The notes beneath the pieces were generated by a model. That model was given only the letters and a program-made list of their open reading frames with translations, was not told the DNA's origin and ran no database searches. Below are positions 10,012 through 54,610 of a stretch of 64,000 bases of DNA, piece by piece. The DNA lies in contig WBMQ01000003.1 in the NCBI GenBank assembly GCA_016630905.1, positions 2,480,001-2,544,000 of the forward strand. The letters run 5' to 3'. Each line of letters starts with the position of its first letter. Positions within the stretch are counted from its first letter, which is position 1. Origin of the DNA: Capillidium heterosporum. Taxonomy: Eukaryota > Entomophthoromycota > Entomophthoromycetes > Entomophthorales > Capillidiaceae. A program made the translations under genes and the position numbers.

Positions 10012-10859
10012 AGTTTATTAAATTCTTGAGTTCTTGTAAAGAAGCGGAAATGGGAGTTGGAGATTTAACTTGTAATTTTGGATTTGATTTCAAGCATCTT
10101 TTTAGGGAGTTTGAAGACGAATGAGATGGAGATAAATAGAACAAATTTAGAATTGGATTAGGAATGGTTTTCAAGCTACATTTGAATACTTAATCGGCAA
10201 AATAAATAGGTTCAATAGACTTATTTGTGAGTTGGATGTTGCACTAAATGACAAATGGAAGTTTGACTATATTTAATAGACTCTGCTTTATCACCAAGGT
10301 GCCATTTGTTAATTCAAATCAAAGTTGTAGTGGGGTATTGTAGTCTTAATTACATTTATATTCCAGTATAAAGCAAACGATAAGGCTACAGCCATTTACG
10401 AACGAATCGATGTTGAAAATAAAAGCTTTGTGTCAATCTTTCATAAAAGGAATATTTTATATATTGTACTTTTAAAACCTGCTGTTGTAGCAGCATCACT
10501 TCTGCATTGTATTCTTGAATAGTAGTAGATTTAATTTGTAACAAAATAAAGATTGTCGTACAAGAGCTGCCATATGGTAATGTTTAGCCAAGTTCATTTA
10601 AAAGCTGATCTGCCAATATATAGCTGTCTCTTTAAGAGGATACAAAGATAAGCAATAAAGTACCAACATATCCATCTTCCAATTTACATTTGCCATATCT
10701 TTATCTCTAAATTACATCTTTGCCTTATGAAGTTGCACTCCAATCTAATAAACGATCATATGAAACTAAACCTGCTGACGTATAAAGCCCCTTGCAAACT
10801 AAAATTAAAGTTTACATCTCTATCATCTTCAACAACTCTACACTATTTCAAATTGCAAG
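10012..10859. promoter_or_regulatory. Divergent promoter region, dynein light chain / urease
   Basis: The 848-bp gap between two divergent start codons. A TATA-like TATAAAG sits near 10782, about 80 bp upstream of the urease ATG, with a pyrimidine/CAA-rich leader after it. No conserved operator could be recognised. GATA-type sites would be expected for nitrogen control but were not counted. Confidence 0.4.
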
Positions 10860-13487
10860 ATGCACCTAACCCCTAAAGAACTCGACAAGCTTATAATCAC
10901 CCAAACTGGTTTATTGGCCCAACGAAGGCTGTGTCGCGGTCTACGGTTGAATCAAGTGGAAGCTATAGCCTTGATCACCAACGTCCTTTTGGAACTAGTT
11001 CGTGACGGTAACCATTCGGTAGCCGATTTGATGTCTTTAGGCAAACGCATCTTAGGCCAACGTCATGTCCTGCCCCAAGTTCCCCAGCTTTTAGATGAAA
11101 TTCAACTGGAAGGTACCTTCCCTGACGGGTCCTTTTTAATCACAGTACACCAACCTATAAGTAGCATAGATGGAGATCTAGATCTAGCGTTGTATGGAAG
11201 CTTTTTACCTAAACCAGATCAAGACAAACACTTTCCAATACGTAAAGATGAGGTCGCAGAACCTACCTTTATCTTAGCTGAAGGTAGTATTGTATGCTGC
11301 GCAGGTAGGGACCGTATCAAATTACTAGTTACCAATCTAGGAGATAGGCCTATCCAAGTAGGTTCACATTACCACTTCATCGAGACCAACCCCAATTTGA
11401 AGTTCGATAGATTGAAGAGTTATGGGTTTCGATTAGATATTGCAGCTGGGACTTCGGTTCGATTTGAACCAGGTGATCGACGTCAAGTACAACTGGTGCG
11501 TATAGGTGGAAATCAAGTCATCTCAGGAGGTAACAACTTGGCTACTGGGAAAATCGACCTCAGCAATCTCAACCAGATTTTTACTCGAATTCAGGAGCGC
11601 GGATTCCATCATGAAAATGAAGATATTCAAGCCGAAGTTATGAACCCGTTTACTATAGATAGGAAAACCTACCTTTCCATGTTCGGGCCTACAACTGGAG
11701 ACAAAGTAAGGTTGGGGGATACTGCTCTCTACATCCAAATAGAAAAAGATCTGACGCATTATGGCGATGAATCCAAATTCGGTGGTGGCAAAGTATTACG
11801 TGAAGGGATGGGTCAATCCACCTACTTACTTACCGACGTTGCTGTAGATACGGTAATCACCAATTGTCTGATAGTTGACTACACTGGGATCTACAAGGCC
11901 GACATCGGTATAAAATCCGGCGTAATAGTCGGTATAGGTAAGTCAGGGAATCCTGATGTGCAATCGGACGTAGACATTGTAGTCGGCGTATCTACTGAAG
12001 CTATAGCTGGAGAAGGTCTAATAATTACAGCTGGAGGTATTGACAGCCATATCCACTACATCTGCCCCCAGCTTGCCGACGAAGCCCTAGCTTCTGGAGT
12101 AACAACTTTCATTGGGGGAGGTACGGGGCCAGCAACTGGTACTAATGCCACCACCTGTACACCAGGACCCAACCACCTGCACAACATGTTTTTAGCTACC
12201 GACTTAATCCCATTGAACTTAGGCTTCACCGGTAAAGGAAATTCAGCCGATGTCCATGGGCTGCAGGAGCAGATCGTAGCTGGTGCTATAGGATTAAAGC
12301 TGCACGAGGATTGGGGTACCACGCCAGCTGCCATCGATGCCTGTTTACAAGTCTGTGATCAACTAGACGTACAAACGACTATACACACTGACACTCTCAA
12401 TGAGAGCGGATATGTCGAAACTACGTTAGGCGCCATAGCAGGCCGTACCATCCACACCTACCACTCGGAAGGTGCCGGTGGAGGCCACGCTCCCGATATT
12501 ATGAAAGTATGCTCTCATCCTAACGTCATACCTTCTTCGACCAATCCAACTCGACCCTTTGCCACTAATACTCTAGATGAGCACGTAGATATGCTGATGG
12601 TATGTCACCACCTCGACAAGAACATCCCCGAAGATGTAGCTTTCGCCGAGTCGCGTATTCGAGGCGAGACTATAGCTGCTGAGGATGTATTGCATGACGT
12701 TGGAGCCATTTCGATAATTAGTTCTGATTCACAAGCTATGGGTAGGGTAGGTGAAGTCATCAGCCGCACTTGGAAGACCTGCCATAAGATGAAGTTGCAA
12801 AGGGGTAAGTTGGAGGAGGATGTAGATTTGGAAGGTATCGACACCGACGATTTGAAGGCTAAAAGATTAAGAGGGGAGCTGATGGAAGGAATAGAGAATG
12901 CCGGTAACGATAATCTCAGGGTCAAGCGTTACGTTGCCAAGTATACTATCAATCCGTAGGTGTATTTTAACATATATATACTAACATTTACTTTTTTAAA
13001 ATTATAAAGAGCGATAGCTCACGGTATAAGTCATAAATTTGGTAGCATCGAAATTGGTAAAATAGCCGATCTTGTATTATTCCAACCTTACCACTTTGGT
13101 ACCAAACCGGAGTTAGTACTCAAATCAGGACAAATCGTCTATGCTATCATGGGTGATGCCAATGCTTCCATCCCCACCTGCCAACCATTGATTGGTCGTA
13201 AAATGTTCATCAATCCGGAAACTTCCTACCTTTTCGTCTCCAAAATCGCCTTGACCAACCCTGCTTTCTTAGAAGTACACAAAAAGTTGAGAAAGAAGAT
13301 CATGCCAGTGGAAAACTGTAGAAACATAGGGAAGAAGGATATGAAATTGAACGATAGGATGCCCAAGTTGGAGATCGATCCAGAGACTTATGAAGTTAAG
13401 ATGGATGGTCAGGTTTGCTCGTGCTTACCAGCTGGTAAGGATGTAGGCATGACCTTACCTTTGAATCAGAACCATTACCTGTATTAA
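10860..13487 (+). CDS. Urease, single-chain eukaryotic (gamma-beta-alpha fusion)
   Basis: Two exons, join(10860..12955, 13010..13487), with a 54-nt intron; 857 aa. It hydrolyses urea to ammonia and carbamate in the cytosol. Domains: gamma-like (1-100, LTPKELDKL start), beta-like (about 130-240), alpha catalytic (about 265-857). All nickel-site residues are present with bacterial-urease spacing: His397 and His399 (SHIH), carbamylated Lys480 (GLKLHEDWG), His509 (TIHTD), His535 ([15 protein letters not shown]), Asp623 ([12 protein letters not shown]), plus flap Cys582-His583. The intron falls in the codon before AIAHGISH near the C-terminus. The gene looks intact and active. Urease accessory proteins are needed for nickel insertion and are not in this window. 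Confidence 0.97.
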
Positions 13488-24693: not shown

Positions 24694-26191
24694 ATGGAGC
24701 CTTGTACAGGACAACAGGTCTATATAGATGCCAGGAAAAACCGCGATGTTTATAATCAAAAAGCTAGTAGCAAAGAGGAATATCAGTACTACCAACCTCA
24801 GGGCTTAAGAATGACCCGATTTAACAGTAGCAAAGTTGTTGCTGAAAGTATATTGAGATCTATGAGCAACAAGCCAATGATATAGGGTAGAACAATCACC
24901 AGAAGTCCGCCAATTTCTCCATGTACATCGACTCCGAACTATGGAACTGGCTACTATTTGTTCAAGATGAGATGTGGCTTCAGCTAAGAGCGAGGTTCCT
25001 GGATCGTTTCACAGCCACAGAATCTGCTGGAGAGGCAATTAGACATCTCAGCACAATGAGAAGGTATCACACTACTTCACTTGGTTCGGTCACCAAGTGA
25101 CTCGCATCTCTGAGACGATGTCCTAGTCCTTGCTCATTGTAATCTTTGCTGATTTTCTCAAACCGGTTCTAAGGGCCAAGACCTTAGACCATAGCCAAAG
25201 TTGCAAAACCTTAAAGGAAGTTATCCAAGTAGCTACAGAAGTCAATCGCAGATGGTCACTGATGATCCCTATCGTGAGGCAGACCAGCTGTGGCCAAATT
25301 TCCAAGCTATGGTGGCTGGTTCAAACTGGTTTCCAGTAGTTATACCAAAAGAGGTACCGATTGATTATCAAGCTCCCCAAGTCACAACCATAACGACTCA
25401 AAGCCTGTCAGAAGCCAGGCAAGATGTAATCTTTGAGATCCTAAAGAAACTCACAGAGGTCATGGAAGTTCTTTGCTCCCGTTGTTATAACTGCAATCAG
25501 GTAGGCCATATAAGCCGGCAGTGTAGGGCACCACCGAGATTAGAAAACGGGAGAGGGTCCCAATAGGCGGCATTAGAGGTCCTCAAAGTAATGGACCGCA
25601 AGAAGATCCACCAAATGTAGCTTCAGATGTGACTGACTAACTATGCTGTATTGACTCGATCCCAAGCTGAGGAATTGCGTAGACAATTAGCGAAGGCCGA
25701 AAGAAACCTAGCACTAGAAGAAATATTGAGAATTAGATTAACTGGAGAAAACATTAGTAATAGAGAACCCTACAGTGAAGTACAACCGTCAGACCATGTG
25801 CTCCCTCAAGGATCGGGACACTCAGCGCCAGTATACACAGTCGGAAATTGTAGAGATAACCAAGGAGCTCAGTATAGTAGCCAATTGACGGTTAAAGAAG
25901 GATTGGAAGAAGTGATAACCCAACTATTACCCTCAAGGTCGCAGTCAAGATTTGAAATATCTACCCTAGCGATGAATCCCCCTCCAAAGACAATGACCCA
26001 GCAATCAGTACCTACAGTAACACCAGTGTTAATATCACCAAGACGAATGGAAGAGACCCGGATGCAAGCAAAGGAAGCCATACAACCTGAACTTCATTAT
26101 TCCTCAACGAACCCCAGCATGTTCGTGAGAAACGATCTTCAGGATGGTGAAAGCAGCAGCAACCTATATTATAGCCCCGTACAAGGCTCCA
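24694..26191 (+). mobile_element. Gag-only LTR retroelement remnant
   Basis: Plus-strand gag-like coding sequence broken by stop codons. A first open stretch is 24694-24885. A stretch near 24950-25100 gives a capsid-like segment (FLDRFTATESAGEAIRHLST). A third open stretch is 25201-25566, with a CCHC zinc knuckle (CYNCNQVGHISRQC, about 25483-25524). A fourth is 25651-26223, beginning MTRSQAEELRRQLAKAERN. No reverse transcriptase, RNase H, integrase or protease motif is seen. The 13-mer TGGAGCCTTGTAC, placed like a primer-binding site after an LTR end, occurs at 24695-24707. Its inverted copy is at 26179-26191, against arm B. The element is therefore non-autonomous and structurally rearranged. 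Confidence 0.7.
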
Positions 26192-40022: not shown

Positions 40023-41149
40023 GACTGTAGATGGATCTATCAGCAACTTTAGTTTTTCAACTTTTCACCTCATATAATAAGTTCTGCATTCCTACACGAT
40101 CTATTTTAAACTACTTCTAGCTTGCTCTGTGAAATTAAAATTTATTTGTATTTAATCAAATTTGAATTATTTTTATAGTGATGGGCCAAGTAACTCAAAC
40201 ATACACATTTAATAGTAAAATGTACATTTTGGTCTATTACTTTAGAGCTACAGCCTCACGGCTACAGTCCCAAATTTCCTAACCTGGGTACTTTTATTCC
40301 CTAACCAAAACTCATTTGAACTACTTTTGCCGAAAATCCAGCCCTTTCTTAACCACTGATACATTTTAATTCCAATTCCAACTTGATCCCAGCTACCTCA
40401 ACTGGTTTCGAATTGTAGGTTGGTATAGTCAACTCCCTTCAATCCATAGATCGATAGCACTAATAGAAAGCTGGAAAGGCATCAATAGATCCAATTTAAG
40501 AAGATTCTCATCTTTGGTAACTTTAGTGGAATAGAAAAATATTTGAACTTCACTTTGGTTTACAACCGTTGCATATAGCTCAGTATTGAAATGTAGTGGA
40601 TAGCGATAACAAAATGTAAAAGTTTTGAAATTTTCAACTTGGCAGCTGTTAAACCCTTCATCAAGTGCTAGTGCTATATTATCAAAACTTGAATTTATCA
40701 TATACGTGCTGAGTAGACCTCAATACATTCCTACTTCCTTTCCCAAGACTTTAGCTCTGCCGATATTGGAAATCTCGTTTTAAATCATTCAAGTATATTT
40801 ATATATATTGTTTCACTTGGTGTTATAAATATGTGTCTTTAATAATCTGAATGCTTTCAAATTCAACGGTAGGTATAACCAACTGTCAAAAATAGAAGGC
40901 TAGATTGGACATAAAATACTTATCCCTGTTCTCTATAGGGTTAAAGCATCAGTTACGTTAACTTTTTAATCAATGTACCATATAGCATTAGCGTAAAAGA
41001 AGGATGTAGGCGAAAGGCAAGCTAAAAATCTATAACTATAGCTGTAAGAGGGTAAACTACTAAAACATGAAAAGAAGTAGCTTCAACTTTACAACCTTAT
41101 TATAAATTTGTAAAAATAGCGGGCCTAACTTGTAGCTGATAGTGTATTT
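40023..41149. other. Intergenic
   Basis: AT-rich gap between the Sec7-family gene and the first secreted-protein gene. A 90-codon minus-strand frame from an ATG at 40701 to 40429 (starting MINSSFDNIALALDEGFN) exists. It has no family signal, signal peptide or splice partner, so I do not call it a gene. Confidence 0.35.
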
Positions 41150-41656
41150 TTAGCCCGATTTTCGCCAACGTGTGTTCTTTTCTTCACCTTTTACCTGTTG
41201 AATAACTCTTCTGCGTTGCTCATCTCTCTGCCTAAAGAACTTTTCTCCTTCTAATATTTTTGACTCTGCTTCTGATTCAGCAATATCATTTTTTAAGCGT
41301 TCTTCAAGTTGTTTAAATTCATCGGCAAGCGATGTCTTAAGAGCTGGACTAGGTTGACCAGCTGATGATTTAATTGGCCTGGCACGAGCACTGGTTAGGA
41401 TCTTAGAGTTATTGGATTCTGGGTCGCTAGAAGTCGGAGCCTTCTTCAACTGGGCAAGTGCTCTTAAGACCAATTTCTTCACAGTACTGGCTGCATTTCC
41501 ATAGCTGGGAAGAGAACCTGATGGAATACTTGCTTGGGATGGAGAACGGACAACTAACAAATTAGCACTACGTTTAAGGTTTTGGACATATCCATTGGTG
41601 AAAACAATTAAAAGTTGGATGTAGGCCAATATACCAAAGATATAGAAACGCTTCAT
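41150..41656 (-). CDS. Small secreted protein, lineage-specific
   Basis: The open frame runs further upstream, but the ATG at 41656 starts a clear signal peptide (MKRFYIFGILAYIQLLIVF, cut near residue 22). This start gives 168 aa. A TATATAAAG box preceded by CAGCC lies ~40-50 bp upstream. Right after the signal come an LKR dibasic site and SANLLVVRSPSQ, the same position where the two neighbouring secreted proteins carry a KR/RR-bounded peptide. The C-terminal half is a charged helix or coiled coil (about 110-165, rich in E, K, R, Q). I do not recognise the family. The product is probably extracellular; function is unknown. Confidence 0.6.
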   Translation of the reverse strand: MKRFYIFGILAYIQLLIVFTNGYVQNLKRSANLLVVRSPSQASIPSGSLPSYGNAASTVKKLVLRALAQLKKAPTSSDPESNNSKILTSARARPIKSSAGQPSPALKTSLADEFKQLEERLKNDIAESEAESKILEGEKFFRQRDEQRRRVIQQVKGEEKNTRWRKSG

Positions 41657-44273
41657 TGCTTTTATAAAGACTTTGGCTAAGGAATCTTTGGCTTTATATA
41701 GGCTGGCGGCAAATTGTCTATTACTCGATAAGGAAATGACATATGGAATGCCAATACAATGCAATTTTACATTTACTGGAAACGGTGATGACGGTTCAGT
41801 AGCTTATATTGCTCTATATTCCTTCCAGTGCTATGTAACATTTGTGTTTACTATATAAGTTTTTAGCAGTTTTTTTCATCCTACTTCCATTTATAAAACT
41901 TTGGCTTTGGCAATCATTGAAATTACCTTAAATCGATCAGATATACTTATAAATTTTGTACTTTGCGTTATAAAGCTGTGCCTTAATTGAGCTGATCGCA
42001 TTTATTGAACAGAATTGTCTAGAGCTATGAATGCTTGGAAAGGTATTGGCACAATTCGTCTACCACTTTACCCTTACAGTATGTCTAGTAAAGACAAATC
42101 TATAATATAGGAGAGCAGTTGCAACGATAAGTATTATAAAATAATCTAGGTAAGCTACATCCCACCTACTTTTTCAAGTTTAAGTAATAGGATGGCTTTC
42201 AATTCATCTACATTTACCTAATTTTTGAGATGATCTGGCTCTATCAAGTTTTTTGAGCTGCTTTTCAAAACACATTTAGTAGCCCTTTGGGCTTTCCTGC
42301 CATCTATAGTGTTTGAGTGACATTTCAATCAAGCATGGTGGTTCTAACTCACTGTTGGGAAGCATCCACAAAGAACGCTTACCAGCAGGGATTAGCCAGG
42401 AAGCAACAGTAGCCAGTACTCTATAAAGTCTAAAAAAGTTGATGATAAAGCTATATAAAGAGGAAACTTGTGCTTGAAGTCTAGTTCAGAGGTGATAGGA
42501 GAGTAGGAGCACTCCAGTTGTAGCTAGAAGGCTAAGGAGCATAGTTGGATTCATTAGTTCAATAGAGTTCTAGGATTCGATTCAGTTTGGTTCTAAAGTT
42601 CAGGTCAGGCAACTCTCTGGCTTAGAGGGATGCTAATTCTCAGTTATAAACTATACCATCACAGTGAATCTATATTATGTCGATAGTAGAAGGAAGTATC
42701 AAATGACTCAAGACGTTTAGTTACTAGCTACCTAACCTACTACTAACTTCACTGTGGGCCTTATATAGATGACTTTTATTTAGCAGTTGGTACTTTGGAT
42801 ACTGGTAATTAACGTTTTACCTAATTCACCAGTACTAATATACACACTATTCTTCTGAACAGTTGTCAGTAACTTTAGGTAATACAGAGGTTGATTGGGG
42901 ACAGTCAATGCTAAATCAAACGCCTAATTCATGCTAAAGGGAAAGAGTTTCTAGTATTAATAGGGTAGATGCTGAACTAGTAATCTATGAACCTGTGATA
43001 TAGATCTGAATTCTAGTTATTAAGCGAAACTACAGCTGATTTAGAAAGATTTCCTTACACAAATACTACTTGTAACCTTGAGAAACAAAAGGTACATATA
43101 TCTTAGTTTTCCTTACTACTAGCAATACTACTATCTATATCAGCTTATTTGTTACTAAATTAAGGAACTTCAATCCTCTTATAACGATTGATCCCTCTCG
43201 TACCTTTTTGGAACTATCAAGCCCTTTGTCTGAGACTGAATCCCTAAAATTTTACACATTCGAATTTACAACGGCGCCTTCCATTTCGTTTATTTTACTC
43301 TTGAAGTTGGAAGGGGGTATTGTTGAAGCAACGTCTTTAGATGATGAATGCTCAATCGCGTTCAAATATAAGCTCAGCCATCTATCCAATATATCCCCAT
43401 TTCATCTAGCGTTGCTGACTACAAATTATTTAAAATCTCGTTTATCGATTAAACTACTCGTAGGTTGATTTGTAAGTAGAATATAAATATATATATTAAA
43501 TATGTAAATTTTTTCATAGTTTATTAGTTAAAAGTCGAGTACTAACAATTGGCTTTTTATATATTCTTGAGTATTTTTAATCTTGGCAGGGAAACTAACT
43601 ATTAATTAGTAATAGTCCAAAACTTTAATTGCATTTTACAATTACCAAGCTCGGCAGAAACACTTTCAAAGCCATCACAATTTCCAAAACTTGGATTATC
43701 AGGATATAAATGGTTTTAGTAGTTTGTGCTTTTAAACAAACTATATATTTTTCAATAATTTTAATAAATTGTAGTATCAATTTCTAGACTATAGGCCAAT
43801 TTGCGGTGTAAAGTGCTAGGACCTAAAACTATATCTACTTGAAGCATTAGATTTAACAGCCAAAGACATCTTAGGTAAAATAGTAGAATATGTAAATTTT
43901 TGGGCAAGTACTACTTTCGATAACGTGTTCTAATTTCCCAGTTTATACTACTTTTTACCTACTGTAAATGTATATAATCCATTGGTGATGACTTGATGTC
44001 AAAATTTTTGACAATTAGTAACCTAAAAAGCAAAAGTATACATAGCAGCTTCAATTTGATCAATTACCGCTTCGAAATAAAGCTATTTAAATATACTCCT
44101 TCATCAAATGTAAAATGATCACACTAGTTTGTTTATATAGAGTGATTTTAATTATGCAACTTTCTGATATAAAAGTAAACTGTATAAGCGCTGATGGATT
44201 TACCAGGTTTATGAAGTTTATTAAGTTATAAGCTTTAGTTGATGAAATGTAGCTAAACCAAAGTCAGATAGGT
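41657..44273. other. Intergenic, possible old repeat material
   Basis: About 2.6 kb. 42300-42680 differs in texture (less AT, a CTATATAAAG box near 42451) and may be an old solo LTR, but matching termini and a target duplication could not be established. A frame at 43208-43468 (+) shows no family signal. Confidence 0.3.
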
Positions 44274-45635
44274 CTATTTTTTACCTTTAGGATCAGCTTT
44301 GCTGGCTGAATTAGTTGATGTAGGAGGTGAAGCAGCTTTCTTTTGAGCTTGAGGAGTTTGTTGGTTGGCACCTTTTGGTAGGTTCTTTTTAACAGCATCG
44401 GCATAGGACATTTTGGGCTTAGCTGATGGCTGTACAGGTGGGTTTTTTGCGTTGATAGGTTGGGCTCCGCCTTTAGGCTTGGGGACGTAGGCGCAAGAAC
44501 CGCCCTTACTACGCGTACAGTTGGGTGCTTGGTTAGATCCATTTTCAGCAGCTTCGTTCCTTGCCAGTGATGCTGCCTGCTGTTCTTTATCGGCTACAGT
44601 CTTAGCCATTTGATTTAGTTTGACTGCGTCCTTTGCTCTCTTGGCATCCACACTGGCGTTTATTACACTACTGATGACAGCGGCCCCTTTAGCACAGGCA
44701 TCCAATACTGTATTCGAGTTACCGGTTATTTTAACAGCCTGGCTAGCAGTATTAAGCCCCGCTGAACCTAGCGCCACAAAACTTGCACACCCCTTCAAAA
44801 TCTCATTTTGAGCCTTTAATTTATCTTTGGTGGCTTGTAGGTGCTCCTTGGTGCCGGGAGTCAGAGATGCGGGATTGGGCATCGTGTTGTACCTTTGAAG
44901 AGCATGGTATCCCTTTCTAGCTTCCATATCCGCATTGTTGAGTGTCGCTCCCACTTTAAGTACCGAGGAAGCTAAGGAAGCTTTCGGGTCACCGGCTAAG
45001 TTTAAGGCGGAGCTTAATATGTTACTCGCAGCAGAACCGTACTTTCTGTTCCCTTCCGTCTTTATCTCATTCTTGGTATCGGGAGTGCTCTTGGCGAGCT
45101 TATTTTCAATTTTTCCCGCGGCATTAGCCGCTGCAGCCAATTCGTTAGTGAGACTGTACCCATTTTTCAAGCCATTGGCGAAATCCGATCCAGAGGCAGC
45201 AGCAACTGTGCCAACGACAGCAGACCCAGCATTTCTCGCCGCTCCAAAGTATTTGCCGTCAGTGTTACTCTTTAATCCTTTTTCCTTAAATGCATCAGTC
45301 GTACCTACTACAGCCTGATTGAAATAGCTTCCAATAGTACTTGATCTAACTGGCGGTTTATGATTCGGAACTTGGGCCTCTAATTGACCTGGGCTTGGTT
45401 GTTGTTGTCCTTGTTGTGCTGGAGCATTAGAGGATCCTTCGCCGTTATTTCCATTCGGTGATGAGCGTTTCGATAATGTCAAGTACAAGTCCAACGATTT
45501 ATCCACTAGGGGTCCACTACGTTTTAAGTTCTTTGTGAAAAATTGGCGTAAACCGCGCCTTTCATTCAGTCCATTAGCGGAGATGGTTGCAAGTAAGGCG
45601 TATGTTAGAATTACAAGTATGCTGAGGTTTTTCAT
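44274..45635 (-). CDS. Secreted protein with dibasic-bounded peptide, paralogue 1
   Basis: Single exon; the ATG at 45635 begins the signal peptide (MKNLSILVILTYALLATIS), giving 453 aa. After a short pro-segment come KR and a peptide SGPLVDKSLDLYLTLSKR, i.e. 16 residues between two KR sites of the Kex2 type. An Ala/Lys-rich helical region follows (about 90-330), resembling repeated amphipathic helices. The tail is Pro/Lys-rich with CTRSKGGSCAYV. The peptide and overall plan match the gene at 46778-48274. No known domain is recognised. Kex2 cleavage would release a short peptide plus a larger C-terminal chain; this is inference. The promoter has CAGCCGTATTTAAAGG ~45 bp upstream. Confidence 0.7.
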   Translation of the reverse strand: MKNLSILVILTYALLATISANGLNERRGLRQFFTKNLKRSGPLVDKSLDLYLTLSKRSSPNGNNGEGSSNAPAQQGQQQPSPGQLEAQVPNHKPPVRSSTIGSYFNQAVVGTTDAFKEKGLKSNTDGKYFGAARNAGSAVVGTVAAASGSDFANGLKNGYSLTNELAAAANAAGKIENKLAKSTPDTKNEIKTEGNRKYGSAASNILSSALNLAGDPKASLASSVLKVGATLNNADMEARKGYHALQRYNTMPNPASLTPGTKEHLQATKDKLKAQNEILKGCASFVALGSAGLNTASQAVKITGNSNTVLDACAKGAAVISSVINASVDAKRAKDAVKLNQMAKTVADKEQQAASLARNEAAENGSNQAPNCTRSKGGSCAYVPKPKGGAQPINAKNPPVQPSAKPKMSYADAVKKNLPKGANQQTPQAQKKAASPPTSTNSASKADPKGKK

Positions 45636-45670
45636 AGTTGTCTGTTGAAGTTTCAAGCTTTACATCTCTA

Positions 45671-45687
45671 TCCTTTAAATACGGCTG
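45671..45687 (-). promoter_or_regulatory. Core promoter, secreted paralogue 1
   Basis: Minus strand reads CAGCCGTATTTAAAGGA, a TATA-like element directly preceded by CAGCCG, 36-52 nt before the ATG. It matches the element of paralogue 2. Confidence 0.5.
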
Positions 45688-46777
45688 AGTTGGATTGTCC
45701 TCGGTCGGTAATATTAGACTGCATTAATGAGATACAGCTTCAGATTTTAATGCCCACCTTTACATTTACTGTACATAGTAAGAACATCGTTGTTAGTAGT
45801 GTTGTGTTTTTTTGCTTTCACTTTATATAGCTATGAAGAATGCTAAACCATTAAGTTTATTTTCTTACTGCTAAATGTAAAAGCCAATTTAATTTTTCTA
45901 GTTGAAACTTCGGCCTATCATCGATAATCATCAAATTTGAAATCATTCAGCTTGCTAACTTAATTTAGTACTCCATTTTAAATGCGTTATTGCATTTTTA
46001 TTCCATTCAAACAATTACTTGGAAAGGCAGCAGCAGATAAAGATTTGAAAATACCGACCTGGTTTTAACCTATAAATTGAAAGTATCCAGCATTGAAGAG
46101 CCAGACTATACTTTTACTGTTAAATGCAAACTTGCCTCCAATATATATTTACTATATTTATCAAAAGTACTAAATGTATGTAAGTTTTGGTAGGATAAAT
46201 GGAGTTAATCGTATTCGAATCTAAATATAAATCAGTAGAGGATAAAGATAAGATTCCTAATATTTTTATGAAGTAGGAGTACTATTCCTACTATGGATTC
46301 TATAAGTAAAAATACTCTCAACTACATCATGAAGCAACACATAATAGACTTGGTCTATTCTAAGCGCTATTATAGTCAGCCAAATTTACTTTTGACACCC
46401 TCCAACCAATGTTGATGAACTAGCTATAATGTAACTAACACCATTAATCCCAACCAACATGTACCAAAATAAAAGGTTTAAAGTAATTTTGGATCAATAT
46501 GGATAAACCCTGTAAATCTATTTTTTCTGCTATAGTAATTTCAGGTTGAAACCTTAATACTAATAGCAAAATTTTAGAAATGTATAGTATAAAACTAAAT
46601 AGAACATTGTAGAGAAATACATACTTTTAAAAATTAAATCTATTTCGATTAAAGTTGAACACTATGGCCCAATCCTTTATAGATATATCAGTCGTCTAAA
46701 ATAATTAGTCGAAAGTTTGAATATTTAAGTATTTGCATTAAAAATCAATTTTACCTCTACTAATCCCTTTTTAGAAG
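45688..46777. other. Intergenic between secreted paralogues
   Basis: AT-rich 1.1 kb with no gene recognised. Confidence 0.4.
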
Positions 46778-48274
46778 TTAGGTAGTCTTTTTGATAGGCG
46801 TCTTGAACGCCTGGACAGCAGAAGCAACCTTGACGACGTTACTTAATTTCTTTGGGGCTGGGGCCGGAGTTGCATTGTTAGGCTTAGTACTAGATTTAGC
46901 TGAAATTGGTTTTGGACTGTTATTAGCTGGAATCGCTTGTGGGGCTGGAGTTCCATTATTTTTAGTAGATGAAGCTTTAGGTTCTCCGTTACCGGGTTTA
47001 GATGCTGTGGGGCTGGAGTTCAAGCTATTTTTGCAAATACCTCTAGAGTCAGAACGGCCACAAAGCTGTGCTTGGTTGGAGTTGGATGAACTGCTTTCAC
47101 CGTTGTTAGATTTGGTAGCTGCCTGGTTTTGGGCGGCCTGCTGAGCTTTGGCATCCTTTAACCTGACCTCTTGGTGAAATTTCTCGGTTTTTTTGTTAAT
47201 ATCCGTCTGCAGCTCGGCTTCCTTACTCTTTTGGTTGATTCGGGCTCCTTCAATAGCTACATTTGCGACGGCGGCTGCTGTATTGCAAACTAAGGCAGCC
47301 GTCTTCAAACCGGGCACTGGGGTACCTAGCCCAGTAGTAGCTTTGTCAGCCAAAGTCAGCGTCTGGCCTGCCACTGAGAGGGCACTTGAAGCTCCTTTAG
47401 CTATAGTAATGGTGGATTTATGATCCTTCTTTGAGTTTTCTAGGTTCAGCTTGGCAGTCTCCATGGCTTTGCGAGCTTTTTCGTCCTCAGGTGTAGATGG
47501 TCGGTTGATTGGAGATACTGGAGTTGTAGGTGACCTTGGAGGTACTACGTTACTGCTGGATCCAAACCTTTTGGTCGCTTCCTCTAACCCTTTTCGCATG
47601 TCGACACCACCAGCAGTGATTGTGGAAACTGCCTTTACTAAGGTGCCAGCCAATTCTGTTTTGGGGCTGCCGATGGCACCACCTAGTAAATTGGTAGCAG
47701 AAGCAGCAAAATTTGTTAAGCTGGAACCGGTCTTTATTTTCATATCGGTCAATGCCTTCTTGTCATTGGGATTAGTAGTTGCTTCCTTCAAGGTATTCTT
47801 GTAAACAGTTATACCGGCATTGGTTCCATCGCTGGCAAGGGCGATGCTGTTCTTCATATGCTTGATACCTTCGCTTCCAATGGTAGCATCCAACACACCC
47901 ATCGTCCCAGTAGCAGCGGCCCTGATCTGAGCCACCCTTTTACCATCCTTTTCGGGCTCAGTTACCACTTTGTCTTTGATTGTGTCACCAGCGGCTAGAA
48001 TCCCACTTTTGACTCTATCGCCCAAGCTCGCAGAATTACCCTTTGAAATTTGAGCTTCCAGGTCCTGAGATGATGTGGAAGGAACACTTTCGGCTGGTGA
48101 TGAACGTTTAGATAAGGCCAGGTAGAGATCCAGTGATTTGTCCAACAGACTACTACTGCGTCTAACGTTGTTGACTAGTAGTTGCTTAAGGTCCCGGTTA
48201 TGAAGTAAGCCTTCAGTAGGTTGAGTTGCCAGTAGAATGGATACCAGTACCCCACAGATATGTAAGTTTTTCAT
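46778..48274 (-). CDS. Secreted protein with dibasic-bounded peptide, paralogue 2
   Basis: Single exon, 498 aa from an ATG. The signal peptide is at about 1-22 (ICGVLVSILLATQ). RR then precedes SSSLLDKSLDLYLALSKR and SSP, so the same short peptide as paralogue 1 (DKSLDLYL core) lies between dibasic sites at residues about 39-57. An Ala/Thr/Lys-rich helical domain (80-380) and a long Pro/Asn/Ser-rich basic tail follow. Paralogue 1 also has the Gly-Ser/Cys element before its tail (here CGRSDSRGICKN). Identity outside the peptide is low by eye, so the peptide is the best-conserved part. No known family. The promoter shares CAGCCGTATATAAG with paralogue 1. Confidence 0.7.
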   Translation of the reverse strand: MKNLHICGVLVSILLATQPTEGLLHNRDLKQLLVNNVRRSSSLLDKSLDLYLALSKRSSPAESVPSTSSQDLEAQISKGNSASLGDRVKSGILAAGDTIKDKVVTEPEKDGKRVAQIRAAATGTMGVLDATIGSEGIKHMKNSIALASDGTNAGITVYKNTLKEATTNPNDKKALTDMKIKTGSSLTNFAASATNLLGGAIGSPKTELAGTLVKAVSTITAGGVDMRKGLEEATKRFGSSSNVVPPRSPTTPVSPINRPSTPEDEKARKAMETAKLNLENSKKDHKSTITIAKGASSALSVAGQTLTLADKATTGLGTPVPGLKTAALVCNTAAAVANVAIEGARINQKSKEAELQTDINKKTEKFHQEVRLKDAKAQQAAQNQAATKSNNGESSSSNSNQAQLCGRSDSRGICKNSLNSSPTASKPGNGEPKASSTKNNGTPAPQAIPANNSPKPISAKSSTKPNNATPAPAPKKLSNVVKVASAVQAFKTPIKKTT

Positions 48275-51461: not shown

Positions 51462-52334
51462 ATGAAATTCAGTTTAATCTACATAACCTTGATCCTCAAC
51501 ACCATCTTCAGTGTTGAGCTGCCCATCTGCAGCGAAGCCAACTTGAAGATCCGTCCCAACGTCCACAAATTGTCCGATCAGAAGTTCGATGCCTACGTCC
51601 GAGCTATCAATCAGCTACGTACCTCCAACCATCCCAACCAGTACGACAATCTAGTAAAGCAGTTCAATGACCAGTACCCAACTTTAACTTCGACCCCTCA
51701 ATTCCTTATTTGGAATCGACTCTTCCTCTACAAGTTAGAGCAGCTAGTTGCCACTATCGATCCAAGTGTAACTTTGAACTACTGGGATTTTACCACCTAT
51801 TCCCAATCCCCTCAAAGTGATCCAGTATTCTCTTCCAATAAATTCAGTGGGTTAGGCAACAGTAATAACAATTACTGTATCAGCGACAGCAAATTTACTG
51901 CAAATGCAGCCTACTACTTCTCCGACGATAGATCCCCAAGAAGCCACTGTATCACGAGATCCAACTTAATCTTCAACCAAAAATTCCCTGATTTTAACTT
52001 AGTTGACAAAGAGCTTTTGGGCATTGAACAGATTAGTTGGTTCATCGATTATATTCAAGTCAACGTCTTTGCTAAAGCTACCCATATCATCGGTCAAGAA
52101 TTTGAAACTGGCTCAGCTTTAAACGACCCCCTCTTTATAAGTACGTTGGTGTTCGTTGACAAGCTATACTTTGACTGGCAGAATCTTCATGTTCAGTTGT
52201 CAACTGAGTACCCGTTGAGTTTAAGGTTCAAATTGCAGCCTTGGGATATCAACGTGTTGAATGTAATTGATCCGTTCGATAGGTTGTGTTACTACTACAA
52301 GGAGGATAGGTTCAAGTGGAACCGATCTTTATAA
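51462..52334 (+). CDS. Secreted tyrosinase-like protein lacking copper ligands
   Basis: Single exon, 290 aa, with a signal peptide (about 1-18). The fold signature of the tyrosinase central domain is clear: TSTPQFLIWNRLFLYKLEQL, NYWDF, a Cys pair (139, 163), then ATHIIGQEF and ALNDPLFISTLVFVDKLYFDWQ. The copper histidines are mostly replaced. In the CuA block the H of HGTPQF is Thr76 and the H of WHR is Asn85. In the CuB block the HH of DPLFxxHH is Thr228-Leu229. Only His208 of the HxxxH pair remains (Ala204 for the first). Known: tyrosinases oxidise phenols through six His. Inferred: this secreted paralogue cannot bind two coppers and is a pseudoenzyme with another role. The frame is intact with no stops, arguing against simple decay. 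Confidence 0.8.
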   Translation: MKFSLIYITLILNTIFSVELPICSEANLKIRPNVHKLSDQKFDAYVRAINQLRTSNHPNQYDNLVKQFNDQYPTLTSTPQFLIWNRLFLYKLEQLVATIDPSVTLNYWDFTTYSQSPQSDPVFSSNKFSGLGNSNNNYCISDSKFTANAAYYFSDDRSPRSHCITRSNLIFNQKFPDFNLVDKELLGIEQISWFIDYIQVNVFAKATHIIGQEFETGSALNDPLFISTLVFVDKLYFDWQNLHVQLSTEYPLSLRFKLQPWDINVLNVIDPFDRLCYYYKEDRFKWNRSL

Positions 52335-53743
52335 TAAAGATATAGTTTATTTCTAGTTGTATTTTTGTTAGTTTTTTCTTTGTCATAAAGAATCTTTTGG
52401 ATTGTAATGGCTTGAAAAGCTAATTTGAGTTGGCAATTGAGTAAACTTACATTGCCACTTAAATTTTCATTGATATATTTACTATGTAGTAGACTTCAAA
52501 TCACCCTATACAAAATTACATTATATAGTCAATTAAATACACTGTTAAATGATTCTTTTAGACTTTGAAGTTCTTTAAAGGCGGAAGCAAAATTGACAGC
52601 CTATGGATCGTATGCATGCCATTCTTACAAACATATCAGTAAATATTATAAATATTGACCTATTTTCTGTGTGGAGTTGAAGTTTCATTTTCAATCGATA
52701 GATGTATCAGAATTACAGCTTAGCATAGAAAACAGTCCACCTTTTTATTATAGACATCGGATTACTAAATTTTATAAATCAAATACTAGAAAACCCTCAT
52801 GTCTAGCAAAAAGTGCCATTTAATTATCAATATAGGTGCATATAACTTATTTATATATGTCAGTACCCTTAAATAAAGATATCACACGTGAAGCTGATCC
52901 TTGCTATACATCATTCAAGAAATCGACTTTCCCCCTATATCAGACGACAACTTCCATAGGAAAACTCCCAACAAATCTAGTATAGATGAAATTACATATT
53001 CTTATTGGTCAATATTAAATCCAAGCTTAGTATTACTTAGCTCTATACCTATATTCCGATGTATTAGCACTAGTACTAACTTTTAGTAAGGACAAGTTCA
53101 GGGCTTGTGGTGTGTTAACTTTGACATATGATAAATATTCAATCACTTGGCTATGTCTTGCGACATGTTGAACCACAAATCAGGGTTAAACGATGTATGG
53201 TTTATAAAGGATTCCTGCATACACACCAGTTTATCGGTAAGATGAGATATTGTTAGCCTTACATGTGACAAAAATATCAACTAGCTGATGTTTAGTGGTG
53301 CCTATAGGAAAAAGCATATTATAATAAAGCGATAAGGCACATATATAAGCTGACGATAGGTATAGCTACAGGTGATCAATTGAAAAACTATATAACCATA
53401 TTAGTACAACGTCAGATTCGAAAATGGAAACACTTGGGCCAAGGCAGGCTGACCAACTTTACAAAATTTTAGCAGACTTGTCAAGGACCATGACCTCGAA
53501 ACCCTGATCTGCCACGATCATTTGAATATTTTAGATCAGGTTGAACCACCAGATGATGTGAATTCTCATTTCACAAGCAAATTATATAGAGGCTTAGTTT
53601 TACGAACATTCATCGATACTCAATCAAAGGGAGAGTTAATACTTTTACATATAATGCATCTATCCATACTAAAAACAAGGGATTCCTACATAGCAGCAAA
53701 GTATAGTCCTTATCAACTCAGCTGGCTATAGCACCCCAACTAC
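52335..53743. other. Intergenic
   Basis: AT-rich 1.4 kb. A protein-like stretch on + around 53430-53600 (LVKDHDLETLICHDHLNIL) has an upstream stop and no family match. Confidence 0.35.
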
Positions 53744-53752
53744 TATATAAAC
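53744..53752 (+). promoter_or_regulatory. TATA box of the trypsin gene
   Basis: TATATAAAC lies ~40 nt upstream of the ATG at 53791, followed by a CAA-rich short leader. Confidence 0.55.
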
Positions 53753-53790
53753 TATCTTCCACCACTCAAATTCTCAACAAAAAAACCAAC

Positions 53791-54610
53791 ATGAAGCTTT
53801 TCTTACTCTCTTTACTCGCTTTAGTCAACAGCGAATCCTTACAAATTCAAGGTGCTGGAGACCGCATCGTAGGTGGAAGTCCAGCCCCTTTAACTCCCTG
53901 GATGGTCAGCTTACAACGTAGTGGACGTCACTTTTGCGGTGGTCAACTTTTGAACCCTACTACCGTCTTGACTGCTGGCCATTGCGCTCAAGGTGTCTCC
54001 CCCACTTCGGTAACTGCAAGGTTCGGTATCACCAACTTGGATGCTGCTGGTGGTGAATCCATCAGAGCTTCTCGCATCATCGTTCACCCTCAGTTCAGTG
54101 GTCAGACTTTGGCTAACGATGGTAGATTTTTAAAGATTTGGGATGTAAACTAACCATTGGTAATTATAGTCGCCATCATCAAGTTGGCTTCAGCTGCCCG
54201 AACTACCTGAGTTTGTCCAACTGGATTTGAACGGTGCCGGCACTCCTGGAGCGGCTGTCAAAGTTATTGGTTGGGGTAACATCCGTAATGGTGGACCCTC
54301 CTCCCGTACCTTATTGCAAGTCGACCTCAAAGTTGTAGCTGATGCCGAGTGCCAGCGTGCTTTGAACGGCTACAACGGTAGAGTTTCGGTTTGCTGCCAT
54401 GGTGCTACCGATCTCCAGAGTAAGAACTTTTTTATACCAGTCAATCTTTAACTTTGTAAAATAGCTCCTTGCAACGGTGATTCAGGAGGTCCTTTGGTTG
54501 CCAACGGTAATTTGTTGATCGGTACCGTAAGCTACGGTGACTCCTGTGTCGGTCACTCCGTCTTTGCTAGAGTCTCGGCCCTCAAGGCCTTTATCCAGCA
54601 GAACCTTTAG
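53791..54610 (+). pseudogene. Trypsin-like serine protease (S1) with a single-base frameshift
   Basis: Three exons: 53791..54121, 54170..54419, 54465..54610. They sum to 727 nt, one base more than a multiple of three. Signal peptide (1-15), activation site GDRIVGG, catalytic His in TAGHC, catalytic Asp across intron 1 (ND then VAIIKLAS), catalytic Ser in NGDSGGP, C-terminal VSALKAFIQQNL. The frame of VAIIKLASAA changes to that of LPEFVQLDLNGAG around 54196-54203, in a run of three C. Without the extra base the product would be a full-length secreted protease of 241 aa. No GT-AG intron explains the shift. Either a recent pseudogene or a sequence error. Confidence 0.8.

Follow-up and report, generated by a model that had tools for sequence, protein, structure and literature searches.

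What do three neighboring genes for apparently secreted proteins in Capillidium heterosporum deliver to the outside of the cell: a short peptide excised between two basic pairs, or a larger protein freed of its pro-segment? The window analyzed here comprises 64,000 nucleotides of contig WBMQ01000003.1 (positions 2,480,001 to 2,544,000; C23:2480001-2544000 in the contig labels used below), and the genome searched with its genes amounts to 29.5 Mb in 44 contigs. Genes A (46778..48274; 498 residues; a predicted secreted cationic protein), B (44274..45635; 453 residues counted from the ATG; a paralogue of A) and C (41150..41656; 168 residues) are single open frames, all on the minus strand. Judging from the sequences, we consider it probable (roughly 0.64) that A and B represent a family, scattered over the genome, of secreted and likely helical pre-pro-proteins that are cationic and Ala/Lys-rich and whose N-terminal pro-segment would be removed by a kexin. 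The 16-residue segment that drew attention to the locus would then be the last part of this pro-segment.

Protein A consists of a putative signal peptide (residues 1 to 22), the pro-segment (23 to 57), an Ala/Lys-rich body, a C-x-R...C loop (405 to 414) and a basic tail, and B has the same layout. Signal peptides were judged by hydropathy and by eye; an N-terminal hydrophobic stretch is present in A, B and C and in the relatives D, E and G from other contigs. At identical positions, A and B contain a basic pair (38-39), 16 residues (40-55), a second basic pair (56-57) and then SSP. The first pair (site 1) is RR in A and KR in B, the second (site 2) KR in both, and residues 37 to 57 are encoded at 48104..48166 (A) and 45465..45527 (B) on the minus strand. 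The two 16-mers, SSSLLDKSLDLYLALS in A and SGPLVDKSLDLYLTLS in B, share the consensus SxxLxDKSLDLYLxLS, and B has an additional RR at 26-27. The segments between RR or KR and KR behind the signal region are thus exactly where the original prediction had placed them.

According to the passages of PMC8528282 on cleavage specificity, kexins cut after KR or RR with a P4 preference for Leu or another aliphatic residue, and Ile is one of the five best alternatives at P2. Measured against that description, site 2, which reads LSKR in A and B, VYKR in the relative F and AYKR in the relative G, fits the preferred motif well (P4 aliphatic, P2 Lys, P1 Arg), whereas site 1, with Asn or His at P4, fits less well. 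The genome contains two P_proprotein loci, both on contig C12: one shares its open frame with a Peptidase_S8 domain, and in the other a hydrophobic stretch plus an acidic tail can be made out by eye. The hydrophobic N-termini, the position of KR-S, which is retained even between distant paralogues, and the kexin-type genes of the genome support predicted secretion and kexin cutting at the basic pairs. At the level of sequence this part of the claim of a processed secreted peptide holds, whereas the excised conserved peptide found only partial support.

Basic pairs are not rare in Lys-rich chains, and A and B have two and one extra KR, respectively, in their bodies. It is conceivable that the N-termini stay uncut and that the pairs are conserved for folding, assembly or targeting of the segment, and an AlphaFold2 model in which a single helix runs through residues 27-55 would agree with this, although at a confidence too low for use. 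The paired arrangement is nevertheless uncommon: when each protein was shuffled, two KR or RR spaced 10 to 25 residues apart occurred within the zone of 45 residues behind the signal peptide in 163 of 20000 cases for A and in 112 of 20000 for B. Moreover, in the six-member alignment it is the N-terminal pairs that recur across branches of the family, each followed by Ser, while those in the bodies of A and B occupy different positions. We consider uncut N-termini improbable, even though a member without any such pair, described below, speaks in their favor.

A different alternative takes the 16-mer itself as the product, with the second site of A and B releasing an active peptide (a signal, a surface-active molecule or an effector) and the body serving as its carrier or as a second product. 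The comparison of A and B lends it some weight. Both proteins retain both sites, and 12 of the 16 residues are identical, compared with 147/425 in the global alignment (Fisher test of the 16-mer against the rest, p = 0.0009); in another comparison of A and B, 127/432 aligned positions are identical. Regional identities amount to 11/22 in the signal peptide, 5/15 in residues 23-37 and 72/244 in the body (A 86-370), and the proportion of nonsynonymous differences (pN) is 0.18 in the 16-mer versus 0.49 in the body. The corresponding synonymous proportion (pS) is saturated or almost so in the larger regions (0.67-0.90) and reaches 0.90 in the 16-mer; a saturated pS combined with a low pN argues for selection at the protein level and against recent copying. 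The alternation of Leu in SLDLYLxLS (by eye) would, in addition, permit an amphipathic strand.

The peak of conservation, however, does not coincide with the peptide. The best-conserved window of 16 residues is A 45-60 (DKSLDLYLxLS-KR-SSP, 15/16 identical), which straddles the second KR, and of the five residues with which the 16-mer begins, only two agree between A and B. What is kept between the two proteins is, on the aligned sequences, the approach to the second cut site, the site itself and the three residues after it, not the whole peptide. A peak that runs across the second KR into SSP means that it is the cut site with its neighborhood that has been retained. The proposal of the original prediction that a Kex2-bounded peptide is the focus of conservation is confirmed for the A/B pair only, and there in its identity counts, but not in the position of the peak.

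Homologues outside the window were found because a search of the genome with B retrieved a locus on C41 (E 1.3e-5), which in turn led to further members. Member D (C41:1161183, plus strand; open reading frame [ORF] L010:2684-5761) has 1025 residues, and member E (C6:417321, plus strand; ORF L029:1822-4848) has 1009 residues and is 41-43% identical to D over the matched part. Member F (C41 at about 603.8k, plus strand) has a body of 643 open codons and a signal-peptide start in a different frame, and member G (C41:633082, minus strand) has 453 residues. The tree of the body, calculated for six members, groups A with B (99/98), F with G (99/99) and D with E (90/93); B forms a long branch, and its placement is less certain.

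The bounded segment as such is not a property of this family. At site 1 (38-39, with Ser behind it), E has KR and D has IR; site 2 (LSKR-SSP in A and B) appears as VYKR-SPP in F and AYKR-SPP in G. D and E lack site 2 and F and G lack site 1, so that the 16-mer is flanked by both sites in only two of the six aligned members, A and B. The original prediction had named, as results that would refute it, homologues without the dibasic sites and an equal conservation along the whole protein; D, E, F and G are such homologues, the complete pair of sites occurring in none of them. Across six members, moreover, conservation in the 16-mer does not exceed that in the body: four or more identical residues occur in 4/16 columns of the 16-mer and 77/285 of the body, and three or more in 9/16 and 143/285, respectively. 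All 10 invariant columns of the six-member alignment A5 are situated in the body (A 112-345), and the alignment used for the tree has 10 invariant columns in the body, 4 in the tail and 0/16 in the 16-mer.

The same holds within the other pairs. D and E are identical at 17/39 positions of residues 1-39 and at 127/284 of the body. For G and F, the stretch of the pro-segment read in the same frame (G 42-66) shows 7/25 identities versus 150/278 in the body, with nonsynonymous rates (dN) of 0.47 and 0.33; some F residues in the 16-mer zone are read from another frame than those of G. On these sequences, a concentrated conservation of the segment is found in the A/B pair but not in D/E and G/F. In D and E, five of the six aligned positions just behind site 1 agree, which counts against a conservation exclusive to A/B.

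Gene C provides a further comparison. The LKR-SANLLVVR described for its N-terminus is indeed there, and its KR-S (28-29) resembles site 1 of A and B. The score of C residues 1-60 with residues 1-62 of A and of B was reached by 0/2000 and 1/2000 shuffles, respectively, compared with 82, 77 and 231 of 2000 against D, E and G; without the signal-peptide part, 16/2000 (A) and 9/2000 (B) shuffles reached it. The N-termini of the tyrosinase, M28 and trypsin proteins from the window showed no comparable likeness to A, B or C in this shuffle test. C residues 45-168 matched none of the six members beyond the level of shuffles (lowest count 41/500, versus D), and the rest of the protein has no detected similarity. 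By these comparisons, C has a leader in common with A and B, but not the remaining protein. A relic of a fourth A/B-like gene, decayed and with in-frame stops, is situated between B and C (approximately 43216..43512, minus strand) and had been overlooked before; counting it, related N-termini follow one another here in a small tandem array.

The long mature part of these proteins, as its sequence indicates, is a conserved family domain in its own right. Substitution in the body is lower at nonsynonymous than at synonymous sites (dN < dS) in all three pairs: dN is 0.79 for A/B, where dS is saturated, 0.46 versus 2.1 for D/E and 0.33 versus 2.0 for G/F. The isoelectric points of the mature parts range from 9.8 to 10.6 in the six members (9.85 in A), and the net charge, about +24 in A and B, rises to about +183 in E. 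The mean hydropathy of the Gly/Ala-rich 19-mers is 1.5 at most, and the C-x-R...C loop occurs in A, B, D and E, but not in F and G. Charge and composition tentatively suggest that the mature protein may bind polyanions or membranes extracellularly, the likeliest kind of activity. D and E carry tails of several hundred residues built of KKA- and [ST]PKK-like units (KKA motifs: 22 in D, 31 in E; [ST]PKK motifs: 6 in D, 9 in E), which is odd for a protein behind a putative signal peptide.

Taken as a product, the 16-mer thus faces a body under purifying selection, four relatives without its two bounding sites, a gene C without such a segment and a yield of a single copy per precursor of 450 to 500 residues. 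We regard its release as the main product as unlikely, though plausible enough to be kept in mind. A removed pro-segment fits better than a pheromone or hormone, which is still conceivable for A and B. A variant in which the A/B branch, by gaining or retaining two sites, has turned an ancestral kexin-cut pro-segment into a second product, so that a conserved amphipathic 16-mer and a cationic polyanion- or membrane-binding protein derive from one precursor, seems to us unlikely; it would be a two-product secreted system in a lineage whose database searches yielded no relatives.

For pre-pro-proteins with a kexin-removed pro-segment, the following course may be envisaged. The signal peptide would be removed on entry into the endoplasmic reticulum, and in the late secretory pathway a kexin, to judge from motif and position, would cut behind the basic pair with which the pro-segment closes. 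The candidate cut points are R39-S40 and R57-S58 in A and B and one of these two places in the other members; cutting at both sites would free the 16-mer as a by-product. Most likely, the pro-segment would aid the folding of the amphipathic body or hold it inactive until export. The strongly basic mature chain would then be exported and might bind polyanions or membranes outside the cell, be it on the fungal wall, in mucilage or on a neighbor or host. Over time, copies of the family would arise and decay.

Several observations weigh against this reading. In A/B, no stretch of the protein is better conserved than the end of the pro-segment; for a segment that is discarded this would be unusual, and it is as expected of an active peptide. 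D has no dibasic pair near the N-terminus and E no site 2; outside A/B the alignment near the 16-mer is uncertain, and in the six-member alignment the second KR of B is not even aligned to that of A. Charge and composition are all that indicates the role of the mature protein, AlphaFold2 modeling of A with B gave no usable model (mean pLDDT 37.5), and searches of the protein database, Pfam and PDB brought up no relative with a known function.

A tyrosinase-domain gene at 51462-52334, 3.2 kb from A, together with the one Tyr in the segment, raised the idea of an ustiloxin-like ribosomal peptide whose kexin-cut core is modified by the neighboring enzyme. Repeated cores are absent, and the genome yielded 0 UstYa matches, in a search whose control also matched nowhere; on these grounds the idea was rejected as scarcely credible.

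The remaining copies of the family, whose numbers are lower bounds since they are the best candidates of the genome search, illustrate its turnover. A second copy of G (C41:616644) is 95-97% identical to G and has a frame break. Relics with stops occur, besides the one in the window, at C41:610.5k and C41:638-639k, the latter two resembling mutual mirror images, and a doubtful one at C32:1786k (E 0.014). The C41 regions at about 612.2-621.0 kb and 628.7-637.5 kb, which hold G and its frame-broken copy, form an inverted duplication (99.0-99.7% identical) that reflects either a recent event or an effect of the assembly. Two weak matches were discarded by eye: C12:2542422 (to B, E 0.34), where the frame starts like a zinc-cluster transcription factor, and C32:450684 (to D, E 0.08), which sits in the frame of a repeat-helical protein.

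With respect to the surroundings of the array, a non-coding stretch upstream of C (41879..41995, no strand assigned) is about 70% identical to 40729-40850, which lies just upstream of an ORF of 90 residues (40701-40429). The window also carries trypsin-like, tyrosinase and M28 genes. The trypsin-like frame at 53707-54153 (plus strand) stops after about 94 of 220 profile positions, indicating an intron or a truncated gene. A seven-helix-receptor-like ORF was noticed by eye on C41. In Conidiobolus coronatus, trypsins, M28 peptidases and receptors are reported as expanded in the relevant part of PMC12387763, and such a gene content would suit a fungal, possibly entomophthoralean, genome. An Rfam match to 5_ureB_sRNA (11796-12082, minus strand) runs antisense to the urease ORF (10809-12959, plus strand) and probably reflects the similarity of urease coding sequence rather than an RNA gene. 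A Gag-like frame at 25195-25566 (plus strand), in which a CCHC zinc knuckle was recognized by eye, is probably part of a retroelement.

Database comparisons gave no known counterpart of the mature protein. Pfam returned 0 families for A, B and C at E values up to 0.1 (best E for the six members, 0.093), and the best PDB matches of the family profile, to a ribosomal protein (E 0.06) and Tse5 (E 0.18), were both taken as chance. In the protein database, neither A alone nor the three-member alignment A3 had a match with E <= 10 among the 7996 candidates with the most shared words that were scored for each. A check with a fragment of a Sec7/BIG-type gene retrieved 69 proteins, the best one unnamed and 64% identical over 66% of the query. 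Because the search admits only proteins of 0.55 to 1.75 times the query length, this check says little on whether close relatives of this genome are represented, and the missing relatives of A and B are weak evidence of novelty. In open-licence PubMed Central, 'DKSLDLYL' occurs in no paper, and Conidiobolus, 'signal peptide' and Kex2 together occur in none. In terms of sequence, the processing would hence be of a known kind, that of a Kex2 pro-domain, and the mature domain appears to be an orphan.

Histone-H1-like or SPKK-rich lysine tails are the nearest likeness of the terminal regions of D and E, which share the [ST]PKK and KKA motifs. In contrast to such tails, those of D and E follow a putative signal peptide, A and B have no [ST]PKK, and no H1 domain was found in the six sequences scanned, from which the tails of D and E and part of F were left out. 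A peptide lying between Kex2 sites in a putative secreted precursor links A and B to the KEX2-processed repeat proteins (KEPs), which include alpha-pheromone precursors and Ustilago Rep1 (in the sections of PMC6339444 and PMC8528282 concerned with them). The definition of a KEP in the corresponding section of PMC6339444 asks for three or more similar fragments flanked by KEX2 sites, jointly amounting to 15% or more of the chain. With one 16-residue segment each (16/498 and 16/453 residues, about 3% of the chain), no repeats between sites and a remainder that forms a conserved domain, A and B fall outside it.

The layout is closer to that of fungal Kex2-processed pro-domain (K2PP) proteins such as SnTox3, ToxA and SIX1/4/6, which, as portrayed in the pertinent part of PMC8528282, combine a putative signal peptide, a segment ending in a Kex2 motif and a larger mature protein. 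A and B differ from them in their cationic Ala/Lys-rich mature part, and the likeness is one of layout, with removal of the segment predicted. The site feature of K2PP proteins (KR, RR or LxxR in the first half) is present in six of the seven proteins (A, B, C, E, F and G; D has only IR), and a kexin is present in the genome in the form of the two P_proprotein loci. Further marks of the class are disorder-promoting residues ahead of the site and, as the deciding one, a secreted form that lacks the pro-segment. An orphan secreted family thereby gains a testable footing, with cut positions, kept parts and members to compare. If the 16-mer were released and active, A and B would exemplify a pro-segment becoming a peptide signal. 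If the pro-segment is removed as proposed, the Kex2 pro-domain layout of plant-pathogen effectors would extend to an unrelated family, possibly in an early-diverging fungus.

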